From: Gemmatimonadota bacterium
GTDB lineage: Bacteria > Gemmatimonadota > Gemmatimonadetes > Gemmatimonadales > GWC2-71-9
Direction of reading: 5' to 3'
Length of the DNA stretch: 38,728 nucleotides
Assembly: GCA_003222205.1 (NCBI GenBank)
Contig: QHVC01000107.1
Span: 1-38,728 of the forward strand
Positions 3-10,082 of this stretch are shown piece by piece. How positions within the stretch are numbered: the stretch's first letter is position 1; every line of letters begins with the position of its first letter. The notes below the pieces were generated by a model. That model made no database searches. It saw only the letters and a list, made by a program, of their open reading frames with translations, and had not been told where the DNA came from. A program made the translations under genes and the position numbers.

Positions 3-737
3 GACGCGCGCGAGTTGGCGAGCAGTCGCGCGGAGCCGGTGTCGGAAAAGGAGAAGACCGCGATCAGCCGCGACGCCGCGATCCTGATCTTGGCGTTCGC
101 GCTTGGCTATACGCTGCTCGGGTACGACCTGGTGATGTCGCTGGCGCACAAGTGGGTGAGCAACCTGTACGGCGCATTCTATTTCATGGGCAGCTTCCTC
201 GCCGCCTTGATGGCGACCGCCGTCTTCGCCATCGCGATGCGCCGCCGCATGGGGTTGGGCGCGCTCTACTCCGCCCGCCAGCAGCACGACCTCGGCAAAC
301 TGTGCTTCGGGTTCACCGTGTTCTGGGCGTATCTGATGTGGTCCCAGTTCCTGGTGATCTGGTACGGCAACATGCCGGAAGAGACGTTCTTCGTCTTCTA
401 TCGGTTGTGGGGCCCGTGGCGGCCGGTCGGGACCGCCGTGTTCCTGCTCGTGTTCGTGATCCCGTTCATCGGCCTGCTCGGCGTCAAGCCGAAGCAGTAC
501 GCTCCGACCATGGTGGGCTTCGCGCTCGTCAGCCTCGTCGGGATCTGGCTCGAGCGCTACCTCGAAGTCGTGCCCTCGATCAACGGCGGCGCCGGACCCG
601 CGATCGGGCTGCCGGAGCTGGGCGTGACGGCGCTCTTCGGAGGCCTGTACCTCCTTTCGATCGCCTGGTTTGCCGCCCGCCGGCCGATGCTGTCTCCGCG
701 CCTCGCCGCCGACACCCTCGAACGCGAACAGCATTGA
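3..737 (+). CDS. actF: Alternative complex III subunit ActF-like / quinol:cytochrome c oxidoreductase membrane subunit, 5' truncated by window edge
   Basis: Frame open to window edge (the ORF call at 15 is a TTG). Multi-TM protein with FWAYLMWSQFLVIWYGNMPEET, characteristic of ActF-type subunits. Confidence 0.75.
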   Translation, partial: DARELASSRAEPVSEKEKTAISRDAAILILAFALGYTLLGYDLVMSLAHKWVSNLYGAFYFMGSFLAALMATAVFAIAMRRRMGLGALYSARQQHDLGKLCFGFTVFWAYLMWSQFLVIWYGNMPEETFFVFYRLWGPWRPVGTAVFLLVFVIPFIGLLGVKPKQYAPTMVGFALVSLVGIWLERYLEVVPSINGGAGPAIGLPELGVTALFGGLYLLSIAWFAARRPMLSPRLAADTLEREQH

Positions 738-775: not shown

Positions 776-1147
776 ATGAAGCGGTTGCTGGTTCTATTCG
801 GAAGCGCGGGGATCGCGTTCGGCATCGCGTGCAGCAGCAACCCCAGCGGCAACGGGAACGGGTGCGAGTCGACGGGCGCGAACGTCACGGTCAACGCCCT
901 GGACAATCAGACCTTCGACAAGACGAACTTCACCATCTCCGCCGGGTCGAGGGTTTGCTGGCAGAATTTCGGCACGCTTTCTCACACGGTCACTGCGAAT
1001 GCGAACGCGCAGGACACGACCTGGAAGCTCGATGCTCAGCTGAACCCCGATCTCATCGTGCTGTACTCGTTCGGCAAGCAGGGCGTCAACTACACCTACT
1101 ACTGCAAAATCCACCCCGGCATGACCGGCACGATCCAAGTCCGCTGA
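776..1147 (+). CDS. Cupredoxin/plastocyanin-like lipoprotein
   Basis: ATG at 776; lipobox FGIACSS; type I Cu ligand pattern SHTV...YYCKIHPGMTG (H, C, H, M). Confidence 0.8.
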   Translation: MKRLLVLFGSAGIAFGIACSSNPSGNGNGCESTGANVTVNALDNQTFDKTNFTISAGSRVCWQNFGTLSHTVTANANAQDTTWKLDAQLNPDLIVLYSFGKQGVNYTYYCKIHPGMTGTIQVR

Positions 1148-1262: not shown

Positions 1263-1622
1263 ATGCGATTGGCGATGTTCGTCGGGATCGCGGCGGTGCT
1301 GGCGCTGGCGACATGCAAGGATTCCTCCTACGGGACGGGCGGGGGATGCACCCCCACCGCGACGCAGGTGTGTATGGTCTCGAGCACCTTCAGTCCGCTC
1401 AATCGCACCGTGACCCACCCCGCTACGGTGCAGTGGATCAATGGGGACGGCATTACCCACACGGTCACGAGCGATCCCGGCTCCGCCGAGACCTACGACC
1501 AGACGGTCGTCGGCGGGGGCACCTTCTCCTTCACGTTCAATAATGCGGGAACGTACACCTACCACTGTACGATTCACGGAGCTCCCGGGACCCGAATGCA
1601 TGGAACGATAACGGTGAACTGA
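1263..1622 (+). CDS. Cupredoxin-like protein
   Basis: ATG at 1263, signal peptide MRLAMFVGIAAVLALATC; THTVTSD...YTYHCTIHGAPGTRMHGTITV. Confidence 0.78.
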   Translation: MRLAMFVGIAAVLALATCKDSSYGTGGGCTPTATQVCMVSSTFSPLNRTVTHPATVQWINGDGITHTVTSDPGSAETYDQTVVGGGTFSFTFNNAGTYTYHCTIHGAPGTRMHGTITVN

Positions 1623-2735: not shown

Positions 2736-3767
2736 TTATTTCACCAGTTCCAGGAGTTTCGACAACGAGTCAGTCCCCAACGGTCCCGCGATCTCGACCC
2801 TGAGCGGTCCGACGAACCGGGCCAAGCGCTCCACGCGCTCCACGCGCTCCCGCTCGGCGGCGCGCTGCCGCTGAAACTGATAGCCGCGCGCGGCGGCGGA
2901 GTCGGCGGCCGCCGCGTCCGCTCGCCGCTGGAACAGCTGGATCACGAGCGTCGAATCGATCACCTGCTCGACGAGCACCACGCCGTCCGCGTACGGGCTC
3001 ATGCGCATGTCCTTCACCGGTACGCCGGGGATCGTCGCCGGCTCGGTTCCCAGCATGCGAGAGGCCGAGCCGCGCTGAATGACCGGCCACGTGCTCGACA
3101 TCACCGGCTCGGCGCGCGCCCGCTCCATGACCCGCGCGGCGCCGGTCGCGACCATGCCGTCCACGGTGATCGGCACGGCGGGCGTCGGCGCCGCCCCCCT
3201 GACCGCCGGTGGACGGGCGCTCGTGGCGATGGACGGGGTGAGGATCGGAACGACGCCGGACGCGGCGTTCGTGGACGGAATCAAGGAATCGGCGCGCGCT
3301 CGCTCAGCGGCGCCCTGACCCTGCTCGTGCAGCGGCCCGCTACGACTCGCCGGCGCGTGTGGCTGGGCCATCGGACGTGGCTCGTCGGTCGAGCGCTGCA
3401 GGGTGGCAACCGCCTGCGGAACGGTGTCTCGCTCGGCGAACGCCGCGAATTCCTGCCGCGCTTCTCGACCCCGCAACATCCACCCCAGCCCGACTGCGAG
3501 CGTGATGCTCGCCGCCCACGCGATCGGCCACCGCACCCGCCACCAGAGCGGCCGCCGCCGCAGCTCGTGCAGCGGTGGGGCGGCTCGCTCGGCCGGCAGC
3601 GCCAGGGCAAGCAGCGCGTCGGCGCGAGCGATCAGCGCCCGCGCTTCGGCCAGCCGCTCGCGGCACTCCGGGCAGCTGGCCAGATGGGCGTCCACCTGGC
3701 TCCGCTCCGCAGGCGGCAGAGCTCCGTCCAGGTAGGCGTGCAGCGTGCCTTCATCCACGTGCGACAT
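2736..3767 (-). CDS. Zinc-finger (zf-HC2) anti-sigma factor, single TM
   Basis: MSHVDEGTLHAYLDGALPPAERSQVDAHLASCPECRERL (H-x3-C-x2-C); TM WPIAWAASITLAVGLGWML; overlaps the ECF sigma 3' end. Confidence 0.8.
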   Translation of the reverse strand: MSHVDEGTLHAYLDGALPPAERSQVDAHLASCPECRERLAEARALIARADALLALALPAERAAPPLHELRRRPLWWRVRWPIAWAASITLAVGLGWMLRGREARQEFAAFAERDTVPQAVATLQRSTDEPRPMAQPHAPASRSGPLHEQGQGAAERARADSLIPSTNAASGVVPILTPSIATSARPPAVRGAAPTPAVPITVDGMVATGAARVMERARAEPVMSSTWPVIQRGSASRMLGTEPATIPGVPVKDMRMSPYADGVVLVEQVIDSTLVIQLFQRRADAAAADSAAARGYQFQRQRAAERERVERVERLARFVGPLRVEIAGPLGTDSLSKLLELVK

Positions 3768-4260
3768 GCGTCTCCTCACTTCCGACCTCGTAGGCCTCCA
3801 CCAGCCGCCGCCGCGCCCGGGCCAGCGTCGTACCGACGGCGCCCGGCGCGAGCCCGGTCTGGGCGGCGATCTCCTCGTACGGCAGCCCGGCGTCCCACAG
3901 CAGCAGGACCTCCCGGTCTCGCGGCGTCAGCTCCTCGAGCGCGGCGCGGACGCGGGCGCGGCGGGCCTCCAGGTCGATCGCTTCTTCGGGCTCGCCGTGC
4001 TCCCCGGTCGCCGCTGGCTCCGCTTTCAGCAGCGTCAGGTGCCGGCGCTCGCGGAGTCGCCGCCGGCCCTCGTCCCGCGCCAGATTGGCCGCGACGACGA
4101 ACAGCCACCCCCGCGGGTTGGCCGGTCGGTGCACCAACGCCCGCGCGAACGCCTCTTGCGCGAGATCCGCCGCGCGCTCGGCGTCCCAGACCTTGCGGTA
4201 CAGGAAACGCACGAGTGCGTGGTAGGTCGTGCGATAGATCTCGGCGAGATCGTCGGGCAC
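3751..4260 (-). CDS. ECF RNA polymerase sigma factor
   Basis: Sigma-70 region 2 (FLYRKVWDAERAADLAQEAFARAL) and region 4 (LTPRDREVLLLWDAGLPYEEIAAQTGLAPGAVGTTLARARRRL). GTG at 4260 preferred over ORF start 4347, which would read through a heptamer repeat. Confidence 0.82.
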   Translation of the reverse strand: MPDDLAEIYRTTYHALVRFLYRKVWDAERAADLAQEAFARALVHRPANPRGWLFVVAANLARDEGRRRLRERRHLTLLKAEPAATGEHGEPEEAIDLEARRARVRAALEELTPRDREVLLLWDAGLPYEEIAAQTGLAPGAVGTTLARARRRLVEAYEVGSEETHVARG

Positions 4261-4266
4261 GTTCCT

Positions 4267-4363
4267 CAATTGCGGAATGCGGAATTCGGAATGCGGAATT
4301 GCATCTCCCGGGTTTCGAACTCCCCGCCACAATTCCGCATTCCGCACTCCGCATTCCGCATTG
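4267..4363. repeat. Inverted repeat built from a degenerate 7-bp tandem unit (GCGGAAT)
   Basis: CAATTGCGGAATGCGGAATTCGGAATGCGGAATTG and CACAATTCCGCATTCCGCACTCCGCATTCCGCATTGC are nearly perfect reverse complements around a spacer of about 28 nt. Confidence 0.85.
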
Positions 4364-9530: not shown

Positions 9531-9560
9531 GGGCCCTCCCGTTTTGAGGAGGGCCCTTTC
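9531..9560 (+). terminator. Terminator-like hairpin in a divergent intergenic region
   Basis: GGGCCCTCC-CGTTTTGA-GGAGGGCCC followed by TTTC. Confidence 0.5.
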
Positions 9561-9563
9561 ATA

Positions 9564-9581
9564 TTGTGAACGCGTTCACAA
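9564..9581. promoter_or_regulatory. Perfect 18-bp palindrome matching a Rex operator (ROP)
   Basis: TTGTGAACGCGTTCACAA, 39 nt upstream of the cupredoxin ATG; core identical to the actinobacterial Rex site TGTGAACGCGTTCACA. Confidence 0.7.
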
Positions 9582-9620
9582 ACGCTTATCCCGCAAACAT
9601 TTCCCCGGAGGAGTGCGGCA

Positions 9621-10082
9621 ATGCGGTTGACAGCTTTCGGCGCGCTGCTCGCCCTCGGCGCCCTGGCGTGCGGCGGCGAGAAAAAGGCGGACCAGACGCA
9701 GACCCAGACCTCGGCGGCGCAGCCGGCCGCCACCCAGCCGGCGGGCCCGGTCGTCGAGGTGAAAATGACGGGCAACGGCAGCACCCAGGCGACGTTCGTC
9801 CCCACCGCGATCACGATCGCGCCGGGCACCACCGTGCGCTTCGTCAACGTCTCGGGCGGTCCCCACAACATCGCGTTTTACGGGGACTCGATCCCGGCGG
9901 GCGCCGCCGCCGCGCTGAACGCCGGGATGGCGAACCGTCAGGACAACCTGTCGGGACCGTTTCTCACCACGCCGAACGAGAACTACGACGTCTCGTTTGC
10001 GGGTGCGCCGACGGGGGTTTACAAGGGGTACTGCCTGCCCCACGTGGCGCTGGGCATGAAGGTCACGATCACCGTGAAGTAA
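9621..10082 (+). CDS. Cupredoxin/plastocyanin family lipoprotein
   Basis: Lipobox LGALACGG; GGPHNIAFYGDSIPAG...GYCLPHVALGMKVTITVK; upstream CGGAGGAG ribosome-binding site. Confidence 0.83.
   Translation: MRLTAFGALLALGALACGGEKKADQTQTQTSAAQPAATQPAGPVVEVKMTGNGSTQATFVPTAITIAPGTTVRFVNVSGGPHNIAFYGDSIPAGAAAALNAGMANRQDNLSGPFLTTPNENYDVSFAGAPTGVYKGYCLPHVALGMKVTITVK

Follow-up and report, generated by a model that had tools for sequence, protein, structure and literature searches.

In Streptomyces (S. coelicolor and S. avermitilis), the Rex operator (ROP) has the consensus TTGTGAANNNNTTCACAA; NADH lowers the binding of Rex to DNA, and the targets of Rex are repressed (PMC5355995). These targets include rex itself by autoregulation, the genes for ATP synthase and complex I (nuo), cydABCD and hemACD, and the sites are located in or downstream of promoters (PMC5355995). 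Staphylococcus aureus and other Firmicutes have the Rex fold as well, with the operator TTGTGAAW4TTCACAA (PMC2883068), and there Rex mainly represses genes for fermentation and nitrate respiration (PMC5355995). The locus described below comes from a different phylum, the Gemmatimonadota, and its predicted target is a plastocyanin-like electron carrier. In Chloroflexi, a blue copper protein of this sort, the membrane-anchored auracyanin, is the partner of alternative complex III (ACIII), which replaces cytochrome bc1. No report of Rex control of auracyanin was found in the open-access literature searched. Likewise, the open-access literature yielded no paper linking Rex to plastocyanin, auracyanin, blue copper protein or Gemmatimonadota, which is a weak negative as many subscription papers lie outside such a search.

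The DNA analyzed here (the window) is one entire contig of 38,728 nt from a 2.97-Mb genome assembled in 217 contigs. A preliminary description had reported a perfect 18-bp palindrome, TTGTGAACGCGTTCACAA, before a cupredoxin gene, and both its symmetry and its location were verified in the sequence; it is centered at 9572.5, ~48 nt 5' of the ATG at 9621. The palindrome matches the Rex consensus TTGTGAA-N4-TTCACAA at 14 of 14 positions, and the proposal that it contains the Streptomyces operator was confirmed by the published consensus, which is the same (PMC5355995). Since perfect 18-bp palindromes of any sequence are not rare, with 0.55 expected per window of such composition and one observed, the signal is the match to the consensus and not the symmetry. 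A scan of the 38,728-nt window found no second site like TTGTGAACGCGTTCACAA at up to three mismatches, and 100 shuffles of the window gave no match at this threshold. In the whole genome, the exact consensus was observed once, at this operator, with 0.0003 occurrences expected, and two sites were observed at up to one mismatch versus 0.017 expected, both expectations being computed at a composition of ~70% G+C. The coordinates of the operator and of the features around it are collected in Table 1.

Table 1. Features of the window. Positions are those of the 38,728-nt window.
Feature	Positions	Strand	Basis or remarks
ActF-like (NrfD-type) subunit, C-terminal half	15..734	+	79% identity to the equivalent ORF of G018
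Second small cupredoxin, just 3' of actF	776..1144	+	PF00127, E 1e-4; without Rex site
Third small cupredoxin, 3' of actF	1263..1619	+	PF00127, E 2e-7; without Rex site
Inverted repeat GGGCCCTCC-N8-GGAGGGCCC	9531..9556	+	Surrounds the CTCCCGTTTT box; 1 found, 0.8 expected (shuffles)
Conserved upstream box CTCCCGTTTT	9536..9545	+	Candidate roles: -35 position, or activator/ECF-sigma element
-10-like element CATATT	9560..9565	+	TATATT in most orthologues; its last two bases are also the first two of the operator
Predicted Rex operator TTGTGAACGCGTTCACAA	9564..9581	.	Exact consensus match; conserved 5' of cupredoxin homologues
Ribosome-binding site region CGGAGGAG	9606..9614	+	Before ATG 9621; CGGAGG conserved in orthologues
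Cupredoxin, plastocyanin/azurin family, 153 aa	9621..10082	+	Pfam PF00127 (Copper-bind), E 2e-16

The identification of the downstream ORF as a cupredoxin held up, given its Copper-bind domain and the fact that its best matches among solved structures are plastocyanins (phmmer). The N-terminus of the protein is lipoprotein-like, and the type-1 copper ligands H...CxxHxxxxM, read by eye, are present as PHN and YCLPHVALGM. The closest NCBIfam models are those for plastocyanin, pseudoazurin and halocyanin, all of which score under their cut-offs; for the plastocyanin equivalog TIGR02656, the score is 65.6 bits against a cut-off of 87.85. The protein is related to plastocyanin proper but is not classed there. 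Its named relatives are nearly all from metagenome-assembled genomes of Gemmatimonadetes/Gemmatimonadales, and many of these derive from samples numbered by depth (20-40 cm), apparently of soil.

The conservation of the operator was examined in 70 Gemmatimonadales genomes from three families, taking the 5' region of the best cupredoxin match in each. The motif is exact in 39 of these regions, matches at least 13 of the 14 positions in 50 and at least 12 in 54, a level that Markov-shuffled upstream regions reach at a rate of 0.0006 (0.06%). Across genera and the three families, the arms of the operator are constant and the central N4 is variable, as expected of a site for a dimeric protein. In the other 16 regions the motif matches at 11 of 14 positions or fewer, and some of these belong to genomes with rex (e.g. 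G017, G050 and G023). The link between operator and cupredoxin is not universal, and some of the best matches may be paralogues.

A promoter-like sequence before the cupredoxin gene came to light through the comparison of orthologues instead of a scan for the sigma-70 consensus, which found no promoter in this region. Thirty cupredoxin loci were scanned, and 20 of them have the order CTCCCG[T/C]TT(T/G)-N12..14-[T/C/G][A/T]TATT followed by the operator. The conserved pair reads CTCCCGTTTT-N13-TATATT, and the exact CTCCCGTTTT box is confined to cupredoxin upstream regions among the 224 loci read. The CATATT/TATATT element is presumably the -10. In one genus it lies a few nt 5' of the operator, and otherwise it overlaps the operator's first bases; this placement of the operator at or after the -10-like element is what would be predicted for a repressor; the sites of Streptomyces, in or downstream of promoters, are similar in this respect (PMC5355995). 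The same conserved cluster includes a gene for an ECF sigma factor (3754-4347 of the window). The pair of CTCCCGTTTT and TATATT is possibly a site for this sigma factor, or else an activator site. The inverted repeat around the box is perfect and GC-rich with a T-rich tail on the + strand, and it lies in the divergent intergenic region just 5' of the -10. It is not evident by eye in the orthologous regions that were displayed. By consensus it is terminator-like, yet it is probably located 5' of the start site.

A rex homolog, which the preliminary description had suggested looking for, exists in the genome as a single full-length orthologue of 206 aa (L025:4398-5018), as found by profile search. 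The protein consists of PF06971 (Put_DNA-bind_N) and PF02629 (CoA_binding/Rossmann) and aligns over its full length with the solved Thermus Rex 3ikt (E 4e-50). The two proteins have the recognition region QVRKDLS-FGS-G-RG-GY in common, and GxGxxG is present. The operator that ranks second in the genome, TTGTGAAATAATTCACAT, adjoins the ATG of rex, and a motif matching 13-14 of the 14 positions was found at or just 5' of the rex start codon at all 19 rex loci parsed, the one from this genome included.

The preliminary description had also proposed a search for similar sites near respiratory operons, and pattern searches of the genome found these at three genes in addition to rex. The site before atpA (contig C25) has two mismatches and lies ~19 bp 5' of the ATG. 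Two further sites have three mismatches each: one before nuoA (C51:634), where ACGTGAAATTTTTCACGA is symmetric and located at the start codon, and one before atpZ (C183:1395, TTGCGCTTTTTTTCACAA), which leads the other group of ATP synthase genes. All three have stronger counterparts at the same genes in relatives, and the closer matches there make the nuoA and atpZ sites more credible. With 17 sites at up to three mismatches in the genome versus seven for the reversed pattern, many of the others are therefore noise. A site at C85:16946 (TTGTGACGGGTCTCACAA) is probably due to chance, as the reversed pattern also gives one match at up to two mismatches; the neighboring ORF, small and zinc-ribbon-like, has no role in energy metabolism, and the site was not counted as part of the regulon. 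One relative, G030, has motif-like sites near a homologue of this ORF.

The predicted regulon shares rex autoregulation and the ATP synthase and complex I targets with that of Streptomyces (PMC5355995). It differs in that no site at cydABCD or hemACD was found among the operator sites examined, and in that ATP synthase would be controlled at two separate gene groups, judging by the predicted operators. Unlike those of Firmicutes, the predicted targets are parts of the aerobic respiratory chain. In relatives, the motif also occurs before the gene for ActA, the cytochrome c subunit of ACIII, in several genomes, and 5' of etfB, clpX and an isocitrate-lyase-family gene. The Rex-type operators before clpX (L127 3016, L134 3033, L166 3048 and L172 3078) come from several genomes of another family of the order and represent an unexpected target. 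Rex-type operators were also seen beside genes for the RuBisCO large subunit in two genomes of Gemmatimonadales, G056 and G104, and in G056 beside a divergent phosphoribulokinase gene as well. The location of these RuBisCO/phosphoribulokinase-linked operators (L109 617-634 and 938-955; L159 2632-2649) suggests that CO2 fixation may be under redox control.

The cupredoxin gene is, to judge from gene order, in conserved synteny with ACIII. The first 170 bases of the window are identical to positions 1-170 of another contig, C136 (L224), which encodes homologues of ActA, ActB and ActC; this overlap joins the ACIII operon to the C-terminus of ActF. The last gene of the ACIII operon thus enters the left edge of the window, ~9 kb from the cupredoxin gene. 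In the relative G018, a single contig carries the act genes, xdhC, the ECF sigma/anti-sigma pair, VWA-VIT, rhodanese-MBL, OMP and the cupredoxin gene. From this synteny, the cupredoxin probably carries electrons from ACIII to a terminal oxidase. It would resemble the auracyanin of Chloroflexi as a membrane-anchored blue copper protein of an organism with ACIII in place of cytochrome bc1, and here its gene is linked to act genes. The two small cupredoxins near actF are lipoprotein-like as well, which brings the plastocyanin-like proteins near ACIII to three. No recognizable Rex site was found at the ACIII operon of this genome, although several relatives have one at the ActA gene. ActA-like cytochromes were seen in all eight Gemmatimonadales genomes sampled; a published survey placed ACIII in <10% of Gemmatimonadota genomes, and its authors suspect poor annotation (PMC9426454).

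Explanations other than a Rex operator were considered for the palindrome. A chance palindrome, or part of an unrelated structure such as a terminator or an RNA hairpin, might be considered because about half a perfect 18-bp palindrome is expected per window and a terminator-like hairpin, the inverted repeat at 9531-9556, lies next to the operator. This hairpin is a separate element, however, and an Rfam search returned no family over its gathering score. The chance reading is refuted by conservation, with arms that are invariant around a varying N4 across genera and three families and with conservation in 54 of 70 genomes versus 0.0006 by shuffle, and we regard it as extremely improbable. The palindrome could instead be a CRP/FNR-family site through which a CRP-like activator controls the cupredoxin gene. 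As the preliminary description pointed out, the half-sites TGTGA-N6-TCACA literally fit, and they do so perfectly. Three PF00027 matches were obtained in the genome, along with a single full CRP-type protein (L028:1183-1851, minus strand; PF00027 E 2.5e-27, HTH_Crp_2 E 3e-21), so both half-sites and a CRP-family protein are present in this genome. The recognition helix of this protein, SSRETVSR, holds what we take to be the residues used by E. coli CRP to read GTGA, and it looks able to read TGTGA/TCACA. The Rex and CRP families are thus both represented, and the lack of either family, which the preliminary description had named as grounds against its proposal, does not apply.

What decides between the two proteins is the occurrence of the motif, which follows rex and not the CRP-family genes. 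In a census of 102 genomes of the family, all 90 genomes with rex carry the motif, and the six genomes without the motif, from four genera, all lack rex (p 7e-7, phylogeny ignored). These six (G005, G006, G057, G069, G074 and G010) are without rex and all operators, a natural loss of the regulon, and every one keeps CRP-family (HTH_Crp_2) genes; G005 and G069 retain the cupredoxin, without the operator. Among the 50 genomes that are at least 90% complete, the motif is missing from two, and these are also the only two that lack rex. The motif was found with no detected rex in six genomes, all 67-87% complete, and rex may be missing from these assemblies. Conversely, G049 has rex and three motifs with no HTH_Crp_2 match over the cut-off. 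Rex is favored over CRP because the motif vanishes with rex while the CRP-family genes stay, and the fact that rex and the operators are missing together in different genera serves as a clean natural experiment by which the motif can be assigned. In addition, conservation spans TTGTGAA/TTCACAA including the A and T beside the center, two positions that are not needed by CRP; the site is at or downstream of the -10 and unsuited to classic CRP activation; and the same motif adjoins rex start codons. CRP as the sole regulator was rejected as the main explanation and is very unlikely. It is also conceivable that the site is shared, with Rex as repressor and a CRP-family protein competing for or also using the palindrome. 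The evidence for both proteins would then apply, as both are encoded in the genome, but an independent sign of CRP use is absent, and as the motif is lost along with rex, CRP by itself does not seem to maintain it. We consider such sharing unlikely.

We propose that the palindrome is very likely a Rex operator at the promoter of a gene whose plastocyanin-like product is periplasmic or lipid-anchored, a reading that passed every computational test applied. It is supported at the sequence level by the operator, its conservation, the presence of rex with an operator of its own, the regulon, the fact that rex and motif are absent together, and the linkage to ACIII. Rex, a homodimeric winged-helix/Rossmann repressor, would bind both TTGTGAA half-sites at low NADH/NAD+. 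Bound Rex would block RNA polymerase, as the 3' end of the -10 falls within its site or, in a single genus, immediately before it. A rise in NADH would release Rex and allow the cupredoxin to be made; it would be derepressed together with rex, both ATP synthase groups (atpZ... and atpA-atpG) and complex I (nuoA...). The direction of this response, with repression at low NADH and derepression at high NADH, is inferred from the behavior of Streptomyces Rex (PMC5355995). The redox control of a copper electron carrier envisaged in the preliminary description would, in the physiological sense, presumably take this form. More tentatively, NADH/NAD+ might set the supply of a mobile copper carrier between ACIII and the oxidase in step with complex I and ATP synthase, and the same promoter might also use a dedicated sigma factor.

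The switch is of a known type, with a new kind of target and in a phylum for which no described Rex regulon was found in the open-access literature. The predicted operators place Gemmatimonadota, which are widespread and seldom cultured, among the phyla with Rex control and name a small regulon that can be tested. They also add a blue-copper electron carrier to the targets of Rex and tie it to ACIII, a complex whose electron acceptors are often uncertain.
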